64,000 nucleotides of DNA from Paenibacillus daejeonensis DSM 15491 (GTDB lineage: Bacteria; Bacillota; Bacilli; Paenibacillales; Paenibacillaceae): contig NZ_KB899672.1 of NCBI RefSeq assembly GCF_000378385.1, positions 1 to 64,000 on the forward strand, given 5' to 3'. Below, in pieces: positions 40,770 to 45,472 of the stretch (the first letter of the stretch is position 1; each line of letters begins with the position of its first letter). The notes under the pieces were generated by a model. That model made no database searches. It saw only the letters and a program-made list of their open reading frames with translations, and was not told the origin of the DNA. Both the position numbers and the translations under genes were made by a program.

Positions 40770-40910
40770 TTAGCTTTAGTAGAAGGGGGCTGTCCAATAA
40801 GTCAGTGAAAGCTGACCGATGGAAGGCCCCTTACTTTTTATAGAACTTATAGACAGCAGCCGACCTACTTCTAGGTATTGCCTACCCTACGCGTCTTACT
40901 GCCCTCCCGG

Positions 40911-41096
40911 CTAACGGCCATATATACGCTTATTTGCCCTGAAAAGGTAGCTCATCATTTCTAACGGCCATATATGCGCCTATTCTGGCCAAACAGACCG
41001 CTGGAGCCTCAAAAAACCTCCAATAACTGCGCTGGTGGCCGTTAGAATTCAAAGTGACTCGATTTGGGCGAAATAGCGGCTGTGGTGGCCGTTAGC
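40911..41096. repeat. TAACGGCCA repeat family 2, locus 1 (two direct, two inverted)
   Basis: CTAACGGCCATATATACGC (40911) and CTAACGGCCATATATGCGC (40961) read forward, each followed by TATT. CTGCGCTGGTGGCCGTTAG (near 41027) and GCGGCTGTGGTGGCCGTTAG (near 41076) read in reverse. The spacing of about 50 bp within each pair is constant. The same four-part arrangement recurs at 57.9-58.1 kb. Confidence 0.75.
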
Positions 41097-41184
41097 ATTT
41101 TCCCACTTGGGGTCAGCAATTAATCGACACGCTCATGGCGTCCACTAGAATTCCAGCGCAGTTCGTTCCGTTGATTTTCAAAAC

Positions 41185-41231
41185 AAAAAAGGTTGGGCGG
41201 GATACCTAACGGTTTCTCGTCCAACCTTTTT
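41185..41231. terminator. bidirectional terminator-like stem inside the element
   Basis: AAAAAAGGTTGG (41185-41196) pairs with CCAACCTTTTT (41221-41231) with a further CG pair run. No gene ends directly at it on either side. Confidence 0.7.
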
Positions 41232-41257
41232 GTGTGGGGACTTATTGGACATCCCCT

Positions 41258-41578: not shown

Positions 41579-42499
41579 TTGGCGGTAGGCATTCCTAACG
41601 AGAGCCGGCGATTGATGAGCGAGGCGGTACGGACGGCGCTGCCGATGCTGCTGCTGCGTCAGCTCCGGCCCAAGCAATGGACCAAAAACCTGCTGCTATT
41701 CGCGGCCCTTCTTTTCTCGTTCGAACGGATTGCATGGGAGACGGCGGTTGCTTCGGTGGCTGGCTTCTTTCTATTCAGCTTCGTAGCAGGGTGTGTCTAT
41801 ATCCTTAATGACGTCGCCGATCGGGAGGCAGACCGGCATCACCCTGCCAAACGGATGCGCCCCATCGCCTCGGGGGCGCTCCGACCCGCGACAGCTCTTG
41901 GCTTTGGCGCAGTGCTCCTGACTACCTCGCTTGCGGCGGCTTACTGGATCAACCCACTGTTTATGGTGCTGCTGCTGGTTTATTTTGCACTCAACGTATC
42001 GTACTCGTTCAAACTAAAGCATATGGTCATCCTCGACATCATGACGATCGCGGCTGGTTTTGTGCTGCGCGCCATTGCTGGCGGCCTCGTCATTCGTGTA
42101 CCGTTTACGCCTTGGTTTCTGCTGTGTACGCTGCTGCTGTCGTTATTCCTGGCGATCGGCAAGCGGCGTCACGAGTTGGTGCTGTTGGGAGATGGAGTGG
42201 GCTCTCATCGGGAGGTCCTCGCCCATTACTCGCTGCCGCTGTTGGACCAACTGACGAGTATTGTCACGACGGCGACCATTATGACCTATTCACTGTTTAC
42301 GTTTACCTCCGAGCGTACGATTCACCTGATGTGGACGATTCCCCTGGTGCTGTATGGCATCTTTCGGTATTTGTACCTGATCCATATGGCGGGCAAAGGG
42401 GGCGCACCGGACCGGGTGCTGCTGGAGGACAAACCGCTGCTCATCACGGTTATTCTCTATGTTATTAGCGTGTTCTGCATTCTGACCTGGCTGGAATAG
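41579..42499 (+). CDS. UbiA-family decaprenyl-phosphate phosphoribosyltransferase homologue (DPPR synthase-like)
   Basis: 306 residues, eight or nine helices. The Mg-diphosphate motif NDxxDxxxD is NDVADREAD at 77-85 inside VYILNDVADREADRHHPAKR. LRPKQWTKN at the start, RPIASG, LKHMVILDI, VLRAIAGG and the FTPWFLL/GKRRHEL region all parallel mycobacterial Rv3806c, which moves phosphoribose from PRPP to polyprenyl phosphate. TTG start after AAGGAAGG. It heads a four-gene membrane cluster. Other UbiA activities are possible, but these motifs favour phosphoribosyl transfer. Confidence 0.88.
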   Translation: MAVGIPNESRRLMSEAVRTALPMLLLRQLRPKQWTKNLLLFAALLFSFERIAWETAVASVAGFFLFSFVAGCVYILNDVADREADRHHPAKRMRPIASGALRPATALGFGAVLLTTSLAAAYWINPLFMVLLLVYFALNVSYSFKLKHMVILDIMTIAAGFVLRAIAGGLVIRVPFTPWFLLCTLLLSLFLAIGKRRHELVLLGDGVGSHREVLAHYSLPLLDQLTSIVTTATIMTYSLFTFTSERTIHLMWTIPLVLYGIFRYLYLIHMAGKGGAPDRVLLEDKPLLITVILYVISVFCILTWLE

Positions 42500-42550
42500 C
42501 TCACAGCGGTGGCTCTTAGGCAGAGTGGAGGGATGGGAGGGGGTTAAGTG

Positions 42551-42883
42551 ATGAAGATGAGCGGCGGTCGCCGGCAGGGCGGCAAGCTCTTCATGGTGAC
42601 TGCTGCTTTCCTCACAGCGACGGGGCAGCTGTTCTGGAAGTGGGGACATCACAATCTGTTCTACATGGGCGCTGGCTTCCTCTGTTACGGGGCGGGGGCA
42701 TTCTTCATGCTCCAATCGTATGCGCGTGAGCAGCTCTCCGTCGCGTATCCGTTGCTGTGCCTGAGCTACGTGTTCGCACTCATCTACGGCGAGCTTCTGC
42801 TTGGCGAGGGTCTGACCTGGGGCAAGGCGTCAGCTGTATTGCTAATCGGCACAGGCGTTACGTTGACATCCTATGAGCGCTAG
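42551..42883 (+). CDS. small four-helix membrane protein, ArnE-like (EmrE/SMR superfamily)
   Basis: About 110 residues with four helices. ATGQLFWKWG in helix 1 and QLSVAYPLLCLSYVFALIYGELLLGEGL in helix 3 follow the pattern of ArnE, one half of the flippase for undecaprenyl-phosphate aminoarabinose. ATG 42551 is 7 bp after GGGAGGGGG. The gene overlaps the next by 11 bp, as expected for two subunits made together. A lipid-linked sugar flippase subunit is the best guess; drug export is the alternative. Confidence 0.8.
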   Translation: MKMSGGRRQGGKLFMVTAAFLTATGQLFWKWGHHNLFYMGAGFLCYGAGAFFMLQSYAREQLSVAYPLLCLSYVFALIYGELLLGEGLTWGKASAVLLIGTGVTLTSYER

Positions 42884-43190
42884 TTGGCTGTTGCTGCTGC
42901 TCCTCGTCATGACCTGGTGTGGTGCGCTTGGCAGCGTACTGTTCAAATCCTTCACCAGCTCCCGCCGCAAGCTCATCCTGCTGGCGGGTCTAGTAGCTTA
43001 TGGCGCGGGCGCAGGGCTAAATATTCTGTTGCTCGCCTACCTTCCCTATACCCTCGTCATGCCAGCCAATGCCCTCACGTTCATTTGGGCCTTGCTGCTG
43101 GCGAGATGGGTCTTTAAGGAGAGCGTAGGCATGTTCAAGCTGGCTGGTATGGCTTGCATTGTCTCGGGTGTCATTCTGCTGCTCGCCTGA
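42873..43190 (+). CDS. small four-helix membrane protein, ArnF-like partner subunit
   Basis: 105 residues, four helices, SMR/EamA-like: GSVLFKSFTSS after helix 1 and LPYTLVMPANALTFIWALLLARWVFKE in helix 3-4. It starts inside the end of the previous gene (ATGAGCGCTAG). The pair resembles ArnE/ArnF in size, order and overlap. A likely partner in moving a prenyl-linked sugar across the membrane. Confidence 0.78.
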   Translation: MSASWLLLLLLVMTWCGALGSVLFKSFTSSRRKLILLAGLVAYGAGAGLNILLLAYLPYTLVMPANALTFIWALLLARWVFKESVGMFKLAGMACIVSGVILLLA

Positions 43191-43218
43191 GGAAGGGATG
43201 ATGGGAGGGGGAAGGAAG

Positions 43219-44508
43219 ATGGGGTTTTGGAGGTATCTCCTGCGCAGCCGAATCGACAACGGTGCGGCGTTGATGCTGACTCTCCTGCTCGGAAGCTTCT
43301 ATTTTGTAATGAATCTGCCTTTTGTACAGTTTATGGAGGAGCAGGCCGAGCTGCTGCAAGCACGAAGTCCGTTCTACGGAGCGCCGTTCACACTAAATCT
43401 ATTCAACTTCGACCCGTCTATGTACTATGCGGAGGGAGCGCCGACCATCATCCACCCGCTCAAAGATCTGCTGGCGGTTCCGCTAGCCCTGGGTGCAGCG
43501 CATATGGGTGGGAACCTGTTCTTCCTGATTGTGCAGTCCCTTATAAATGCGCTTAGCGCTGCTCTGCTGTTCTATTATCTTCGTCGCAGCGGCGGCGGGA
43601 TGCTGCTGTCGGCCGTCTGGGCGCTGTTCTTCGGGGTCAGTTCCTACAGTCTGTTCACCGCACTGATTCCGGATTCATACCCGTATGTCCAAGTTATGAT
43701 TCTGTTCTCCGTTGTCTATCTCTTGTACGTCCGCACGGCTGCCGCAGGAGAGGGCAAGGTGTGGCCGCAGTCGGTGCTCGGGGCAGCCAATTTTGCGCTG
43801 ACATCTACGAATGTGGCGACGTTCATGGCGAGTGTTGGCGTGAACTTGATTGATGGCAAACGCAGCAGGCGGGCGGTTCTCACCAGGGTTCTTCTAATTG
43901 GCGCGGTGGCCCTGCTGATTGTGCTGTTGCTGACCCTGCTGCAGTGGCTGCTTTTTGGTGGTGAGACCTGGCTGACGAGCTGGCGCCAAGGCCTTAGCGA
44001 AGGCGGCTTCAGCTATGTAGCGCCGTTCTCCTGGGTACATCACTGGCAGGCCTTCTATATGCTTTTTGTCAGCCCGGTGCTGACGCCTGCGTTAGCCTTC
44101 ATCGATCCGAATCTGGCGGCTTTTGTCACCGATCTCTCCCACCCGTATCCCCTGCATGTCCACCTGGTGGGCGGGGGGCTGATCGTGCTGGCTTTGCTCG
44201 GTCTTGTTCAAGGCAGAAGGAGCAGAGAGGCCTGGATTCCGGCGATATACATAGGCTTTGCCGTATTGCTGCATCTGGTGATAGGCTTTGGTCTGGGGAC
44301 ATTCCAGTATGATATGTATCTGTATGCCGGTCATTCGCTGTTTGCTCTGTTCTTGCTCGGAGCAGGCTTTCTTATCCGTCTGCACCGTTCGCGCTTGCGC
44401 CAGGTGCTGCTCGGACTCGTTATGGTCTGCGCAGGTGTAACGCTGGTCCATAACATCGTTTTTCATGCGGCGGCGCTGGATACTGTGCGTGCGGCCTACC
44501 TGCAATAA
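43219..44508 (+). CDS. polytopic membrane protein, GT-C glycosyltransferase-like
   Basis: About 429 residues and ten or more helices. An acidic first outer loop (QFMEEQAELLQARS, then FDPSMYYAEGAPTIIHP) and a PDSYPY motif near 155 resemble the plan of GT-C enzymes that use prenyl-phosphate sugars, and related DUF6080-type proteins. I use ATG 43219, which follows GGGGGAAGG; earlier in-frame starts lie on the ribosome site or in the previous gene. It ends the cluster with the prenyltransferase and flippase-like genes, and is the candidate sugar transferase. This role is inferred. Confidence 0.65.
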   Translation: MGFWRYLLRSRIDNGAALMLTLLLGSFYFVMNLPFVQFMEEQAELLQARSPFYGAPFTLNLFNFDPSMYYAEGAPTIIHPLKDLLAVPLALGAAHMGGNLFFLIVQSLINALSAALLFYYLRRSGGGMLLSAVWALFFGVSSYSLFTALIPDSYPYVQVMILFSVVYLLYVRTAAAGEGKVWPQSVLGAANFALTSTNVATFMASVGVNLIDGKRSRRAVLTRVLLIGAVALLIVLLLTLLQWLLFGGETWLTSWRQGLSEGGFSYVAPFSWVHHWQAFYMLFVSPVLTPALAFIDPNLAAFVTDLSHPYPLHVHLVGGGLIVLALLGLVQGRRSREAWIPAIYIGFAVLLHLVIGFGLGTFQYDMYLYAGHSLFALFLLGAGFLIRLHRSRLRQVLLGLVMVCAGVTLVHNIVFHAAALDTVRAAYLQ

Positions 44509-44581: not shown

Positions 44582-45472
44582 GTGGGTTATATCTATCTGC
44601 TCCTGGCCACGCTGGCCTGGAGCTTTGTCGGGTTGCTGGTCAAGACCGCATCGACGATGGTGGACGCTTCAGCGATTACGTTTGCAAGATTCAGCCTCGG
44701 CATTGTTTTTCTTGGACTCTTCCTGCTGATTAAGAATGGGCGAATCCAGCTGCGGAGCAATCTCAAGTGGATTTGGCTGGGCGCGGCGGGCAAGTCGATT
44801 AACTATATTTTTGAAAATATTGCGATTTCCATGGGCTACGCCTACGGCAATATTCTGGTTCCACCGATTCAGACGGTCGTCCTGCTGCTGGTGTCGGCGT
44901 TTCTGTTCAAGGAGCATGTCTCGGGCAAAGGCTGGATTGCCGCCGCGTGCTGTATGGCCGGGGTGCTGGCGATTAGCTGGAACGGGCAGCCCATGGACGA
45001 TCTGCTTGGCGGCAGCGGGTGGATTACCGTGCTATTTGCCATCTCTGCAGTAGGTTCTGCACTGCATGTACTCAGCCAGAAGCAGCTTATCCAATCGATG
45101 GATAACGGCAATATGAACTTTTCCGTGTTCTTCTGGTGCAGTGTCCTGACGGCGCTGCCGCTGCCGGTACAATCCGAGGGCTTCATTGGACCGATGAGCG
45201 GATGGGCATGGCTGGCGCTCGCGGCACTGGGCCTGATTACGGGCCTTAGCTTCGTATGGTTCTCCGAGGCGGTACGCCGGGTCCCGTTCCCGATGATCAT
45301 CATCGTCAGCAACAGTATGGTACTGTTCACCATTCTCTGGTCATTCCTGTTCCTCGGTGAGCCAATCACAGCCTATATTATCGGGGGAACGATCCTATTC
45401 TTCCTGGGACTGATGTTGCTTAACCTGCCGCTGATGCGAGCCAAGACCAAGGCGGTTCAAGAGCAAGCGTAA
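44582..45472 (+). CDS. EamA/DMT-family transporter
   Basis: 296 residues, ten helices in two EamA repeats (GYIYLLLATLAWSFVGLLVK...FARFSLGIVFLGLFLL; LGLITGLSFVWFSEAVRRVP...FLFLGEPIT). Typical of metabolite exporters. GTG start at 44582 after a GGTGGATGG site. The convergent neighbour is an SgrR-type regulator. Confidence 0.88.
   Translation: MGYIYLLLATLAWSFVGLLVKTASTMVDASAITFARFSLGIVFLGLFLLIKNGRIQLRSNLKWIWLGAAGKSINYIFENIAISMGYAYGNILVPPIQTVVLLLVSAFLFKEHVSGKGWIAAACCMAGVLAISWNGQPMDDLLGGSGWITVLFAISAVGSALHVLSQKQLIQSMDNGNMNFSVFFWCSVLTALPLPVQSEGFIGPMSGWAWLALAALGLITGLSFVWFSEAVRRVPFPMIIIVSNSMVLFTILWSFLFLGEPITAYIIGGTILFFLGLMLLNLPLMRAKTKAVQEQA

Follow-up and report, generated by a model that had tools for sequence, protein, structure and literature searches.

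The window analysed here is a stretch of 64,000 nucleotides from Paenibacillus daejeonensis DSM 15491, and the four open reading frames that a sequence-only reading had grouped as a cluster are present on its plus strand (Table 1). They encode a UbiA-superfamily synthase, two SMR/EamA-type small membrane proteins (SMR1 and SMR2) and a large polytopic protein with a predicted GT-C fold. All four genes are co-directional, with 48 bases between the synthase and SMR1 genes, an 11-base overlap of the SMR1 and SMR2 genes and 28 bases between the SMR2 and GT-C genes, and because the genes either overlap or are separated by gaps of 28 to 48 bases they are likely to form one transcription unit. The TTG start codon of the synthase gene has AAGGAAGGGTGAG just 5' of it, and the N-terminal sequence MAVGI is common to the window and its relative L016. 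For the GT-C gene the ORF caller placed the start at a TTG codon at 43159, and the 429-residue length given in the earlier reading corresponds to the ATG start listed in Table 1.

Two neighbors of the operon were also recorded. An EamA transporter gene lies directly 3' of it and is found downstream in L016 as well, with matches in two loci only. A MITE-like element just upstream has terminal inverted repeats around TGTCCAATAAGTC, a stem-loop, and inner CTAACGGCCA motifs spaced 50 bases apart in both direct and inverted orientation; a similar copy is present on genome contig C1 (L097, approximately 2327-2649).

Table 1. Features of the locus, in window coordinates
Feature	Position	Strand	Remark
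Polyprenyl-phosphate phosphoribosyltransferase, predicted (PPPRS/DPPRS; UbiA superfamily)	41579..42499	+	306 aa, TTG start
Synthase residue 212 (equivalent of Rv3806c K208)	42212..42214	+	E in the window
SMR/EamA-type small membrane protein, putative flippase subunit 1 (ArnE/ArnF-like)	42548..42883	+	111 aa
SMR/EamA-type small membrane protein, putative flippase subunit 2	42873..43190	+	105 aa
GT-C fold membrane glycosyltransferase, predicted (DUF6080)	43219..44508	+	429 aa from ATG
EamA transporter gene	44582..45472		directly 3' of the operon
MITE-like element	40785..41257		just upstream of the operon
Terminal inverted repeats of the element	40791..40803 and 41239..41251		
Stem-loop of the element	41186..41231		

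Family assignment of the encoded proteins

The synthase matches the UbiA domain (PF01040) and the decaprenyl-phosphate phosphoribosyltransferase model NF008977, an NCBIfam equivalog, at 257.6 bits against a cut-off of 234; it also scores 231.2 bits with NF008978 (cut-off 207), and NF008977 is matched by all 23 aligned synthase relatives. Among solved structures its best match is Mycobacterium tuberculosis Rv3806c (PDB 8j8j, E 2.5e-45), the enzyme to which the first gene had originally been likened. When the PRPP-Mg contact residues of Rv3806c listed by Gao et al. (PMC10994848) were transferred through the 8j8j alignment, 9 of the 11 proved identical in the window synthase: R30, K36, Y74, N77, D81, K91, R94, Y142 and K147, which correspond to R22, K28, Y70, N73, D77, K87, R90, Y138 and K143 of Rv3806c. 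These nine are invariant in 23 aligned Firmicute synthases. The remaining two contacts carry the substitutions Q135N and Y157F, the second of which occurs in mycobacteria as well. The phosphoribose-binding residues of Rv3806c are not kept in ordinary UbiA enzymes (PMC10994848). An N-D-x-x-D-x-x-x-D motif that matters in Citrobacter ORF15 (PMC11127046) is likewise invariant in the aligned Firmicute synthases. The strictest sequence test that could be applied classes the 306-aa protein as a phosphoribosyltransferase; it sides with the phosphoribosyl enzymes and not with other UbiA enzymes, so that the parallel with Rv3806c stands. A generic UbiA prenyltransferase of quinone, heme, menaquinone or chlorophyll metabolism was ruled out, the scores with those models being far under their cut-offs. 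The equivalent of Rv3806c K208, a residue in a positively charged cleft (PMC10994848), is glutamate in 3 of the 23 aligned sequences, including the window. The other two are L016 and L017, from the same lineage without the HAD phosphatase described below.

SMR1 matches the EamA family (PF00892) at 35.6 bits, and SMR2 at 24.9 bits, slightly under the cut-off of 28.2. With the ArnF and ArnE models SMR1 scores 26.6 and 25.5 bits (cut-offs 99 and 92), and SMR2 scores 28.7 bits with the ArnE model (cut-off 92). Because these scores fall below the ArnE/ArnF cut-offs, the two proteins are not ArnE/ArnF members; the resemblance to the aminoarabinose flippase that was first noticed consists of EamA matches and weak ArnE/ArnF matches. 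Each protein was aligned across 17 sequences, in which SMR1 retains invariant ATGQ and YP motifs, and a PDB sequence search with the SMR profiles gave no useful match. The overlap of the two genes in frame order resembles a two-subunit unit, and from position and family the pair may work like a flippase pair.

The 429-aa protein matches DUF6080 (PF19558) at 34.4 bits, above the Pfam cut-off of 27, and 27 of 28 homologs match this family at E ≤0.01. A search of PDB sequences with its profile found no useful match, DUF6080 occurs elsewhere in the phylum in 8 of 398 genomes, too sparsely for genomic context, and a literature search on DUF6080 found nothing relevant. For an AlphaFold model of the protein (pLDDT 84, pTM 0.89), the VIA Z score was 20.8 with ALG12 (rmsd 3.9 over 319 residues), 19.2 with Pmt4, 18.2 with PglB, 17.8 with AftB and AftD, 17.0 with ArnT and 14.4 with EmbB. 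All 50 structural matches listed were either GT-C enzymes or PIG-U, a subunit of GPI transamidase, and these again formed the top rows of a Foldseek search, in which E-values were weak (best 1.5e-3). The GT-C look ascribed to the protein on first reading is confirmed at fold level by the predicted model, as a GT-C transmembrane fold. D65, H79, D152, D365 and H372 are invariant among the homologs, with D65 and H79 in the loop after TM1, where several GT-C enzymes have a catalytic Asp (PMC11127046). The model is weak, with pLDDT under 50, in segments 65-71 and 365-368, which include conserved candidate catalytic residues.

Conservation of the gene cluster

A GTDB genome scan identified at least 562 relatives, and we compared the best 80 loci. 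Within these 80, the synthase is paired with this GT-C in 46, and both SMR genes are also present in 43. The 46 type A loci have the order synthase, usually a HAD phosphatase gene, SMR1, SMR2 and GT-C, and their hosts are Paenibacillaceae and one unplaced Bacilli metagenome-assembled genome (MAG). Type B loci (Brevibacillus, Pelosinus and some Paenibacillus) combine the synthase with DUF212, a divergent PAP2 protein, and usually one ArnF-like SMR gene, as in L086, L056, L050 and others. This arrangement suggests that DUF212 is a phosphoribosyl-lipid phosphatase. Type C loci (Metabacillus, Peribacillus, Lentibacillus, Tumebacillus and one Bacillaceae MAG) contain the synthase, DprE1, DprE2 and an LPG_synthase_TM protein, in part with DUF212. 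DprE1 and DprE2 genes adjoin the synthase in the Firmicute loci L044, L073, L078, L094 and L095, an apparent D-arabinofuranose pathway outside Actinobacteria, in which the LPG_synthase_TM protein is a possible flippase and L094 also has a PMT_2 GT-C. Related clusters in other Firmicutes thus have other components in place of the SMR pair and this GT-C. In the synthase tree the cluster types are strongly grouped, with 10 changes compared with 36 in shuffles, and do not each form a single clade.

Among 120 family genomes, 32 have the synthase, and the 24 with a full-length GT-C are all among these 32. Every one of the 24 full-length GT-C genes adjoins the synthase gene and shares its contig and strand (Fisher p = 1e-18, a value that overstates independence since the 120 genomes are related). 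The spread is patchy, with the synthase in three of the eight genomes of the window's genus. Because the same gene order is kept in many Paenibacillus genomes, the gene set is not a chance arrangement, and the conservation of order that the sequence-only reading had proposed as a check is borne out. The type A clusters examined lie outside polysaccharide loci, unlike several type B and C loci, a location that would be consistent with a role in modifying a general envelope polymer.

A predicted lipid-linked pentofuranose pathway

We consider it probable that the four genes form a three-component lipid-linked pentofuranose system. On the strength of its homology, the UbiA-type enzyme would move 5-phosphoribose from PRPP to undecaprenyl phosphate at the cytoplasmic face of the membrane. 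The 5'-phosphate would then be taken off, in most relatives by the HAD enzyme and in the window's lineage by a phosphatase that is either unlinked or not specific. The SMR/EamA pair, judged by context and family, would form a heterodimeric flippase in the manner of ArnE/ArnF, bringing C55-P-ribofuranose to the outer face. Finally, the GT-C protein, whose fold is modelled, would pass ribofuranose to an extracytoplasmic glycan or protein and free C55-P.

DprE1 was not found genome-wide; the query returned a lactone-oxidase-type protein, a berberine-bridge-like protein (a label read from its sequence) and GlcD, and with the DprE1 model the lactone-oxidase type scored 60 bits and GlcD 43 bits against a cut-off of 500, compared with 450.7 for a Firmicute DprE1. 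Neither DprE1 nor DprE2 was found in the 46 type A clusters, with flanks of up to 8 kb. The original remark that the window contains no epimerase therefore extends to the whole genome for DprE1, and to the window cluster and related type A clusters for DprE2. Given these negative results for DprE1 and DprE2, ribose is the simplest product, and the transferred sugar probably stays ribose; an arabinose pathway in the window's genome was ruled out by the lack of DprE1. An unlinked epimerase acting on C55-P-ribose could give arabinofuranose or xylofuranose instead, as adding an epimerase changes which sugar is transferred in systems that are otherwise alike (Kelly et al. 2024, PMC11127046) and the five Firmicute loci named above have DprE1/DprE2 beside the synthase, but against the lack of DprE1 in the genome and of DprE1/DprE2 in the type A clusters we regard an epimer as unlikely.

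The assignment of the flippase step to the SMR pair has a rival of its own, in which the SMR pair exports something else and the lipid is flipped by another transporter, such as the EamA protein encoded 3' of the operon or a MATE-like protein encoded at another locus. Three loci (L076, L080 and L087) have the synthase and GT-C with no SMR pair beside them, which shows that the pair does not always accompany these two genes; small-molecule export is also known for SMR/EamA proteins, and in this pathway class no flippase is directly proven (PMC11127046). Yet both SMR genes accompany the synthase and GT-C in all but three of the type A clusters, other Firmicute synthases also adjoin one ArnE/ArnF-like SMR gene, and the downstream EamA gene is kept only in the closest relatives, which makes a different flippase doubtful.

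In 39 of the 46 type A clusters, the synthase gene is followed by a separate HAD-IB phosphatase gene (TIGR01490, PF12710) ahead of the SMR pair. The DxD nucleophile motif of the HAD protein is invariant, and the protein is the expected remover of the 5'-phosphate. This HAD protein is encoded in 17 of the 120 family genomes, always in a genome that has the GT-C and always at the cluster. The loci without it belong to several branches of the tree and are the window cluster, L016, L017, L025, L040, L076, L080 and L087; the sequence-only reading missed the gene because the window's lineage lacks it. No orthologue was found at another place in the window's genome, and a HAD profile search found none in G000, G005 or G006 and 17 in other genomes. 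Candidate replacements in the window's genome were considered and set aside: eight PF12710 loci fail to match the HAD profile and so do not provide an unlinked copy; DUF212 is absent, the Bacillus subtilis control being detected; and neither of the two PAP2 copies is singled out, since genus-mates without the cluster also have at least two. In Citrobacter, some ribosylated product was formed even when the phosphatase had been inactivated by mutation (PMC11127046), and therefore other phosphatases can substitute. By analogy, another phosphatase most likely stands in for the HAD protein in the window's lineage. It is very unlikely that this lineage, lacking the phosphatase, keeps the 5'-phosphate, in which case ribose-5-phosphate would be flipped and transferred, the DUF6080 GT-C would be a phosphopentosyltransferase and the envelope would have anionic phosphoribosyl groups. 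Very unlikely, too, is a role for the synthase in an intracellular lipid pathway apart from surface glycosylation, with the GT-C taking another donor: the cluster has no acceptor-polymer genes and UbiA enzymes accept many substrates, but the PRPP pocket is conserved and the full-length GT-C never occurs without the synthase in the 120 genomes.

Relation to known systems and significance

The closest precedent for the lipid-linked ribofuranose pathway proposed here is Citrobacter youngae O1/O2, where a pathway of ORF15 (PPPRS), ORF14 (MATE) and ORF12 (GT136) was demonstrated by Kelly et al. (2024), who also reported Gram-positive candidates of the three-component pathway (PMC11127046). As in Citrobacter, a PRPP-dependent UbiA-superfamily polyprenyl-P-ribose synthase, a membrane transporter and a GT-C transferase are predicted in one cluster, with no epimerase gene, so that the sugar here too would probably stay ribose. 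The phosphatase is fused in Citrobacter and separate or absent in type A clusters, the MATE flippase is replaced by the candidate SMR/EamA pair, the GT-C has the family label GT136 in Citrobacter and DUF6080 here, and the acceptor is the O antigen in Citrobacter and a putative Gram-positive envelope component here. The mycobacterial DPA pathway (Rv3806c, Rv3807c, DprE1/DprE2, Rv3789 and Emb/Aft) shares the first-step enzyme, the PRPP pocket and a GT-C last step; in contrast, the window's genome is without DprE1, its cluster is without DprE1/DprE2 and an Rv3807c-type partner, and the flippase candidate and GT-C are different. ArnE/ArnF with ArnT likewise combine two small SMR-type proteins with a GT-C that here would act on C55-P-pentose, but the window proteins fall under the ArnE/ArnF cut-offs, the donor would come from PRPP and not from UDP-Ara4N, and the organism is Gram-positive without lipid A. 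Finally, the clusters L073, L078, L094 and L095, with DprE1/DprE2, LPG_synthase_TM and in part DUF212, have a homologous synthase (61-63% identical) and differ in their full arabinose-type set, their transporter candidate and, in L094, the PMT_2-type GT-C.

The description of the cluster as undescribed holds for this particular gene set and not for the three-component lipid-pentofuranose pathway, which was described in 2024 (PMC11127046). What sets the cluster apart is its type of flippase, the arrangement of the phosphatase and the family of its GT-C, and the supplement of that article may already list a Paenibacillus cluster. Literature searches found nothing relevant on EamA three-component systems and no report of ribofuranose on the Paenibacillus surface.

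DUF6080, a membrane family of unassigned role, gains a testable function as a GT-C pentosyltransferase, and the SMR pair is proposed to flip a lipid-linked pentose that is not aminoarabinose. The recurrent absence of the phosphatase gene raises the question of which enzyme takes off the 5'-phosphate. For the organisms themselves, the prediction is that many Paenibacillus species display ribofuranose on their surface.
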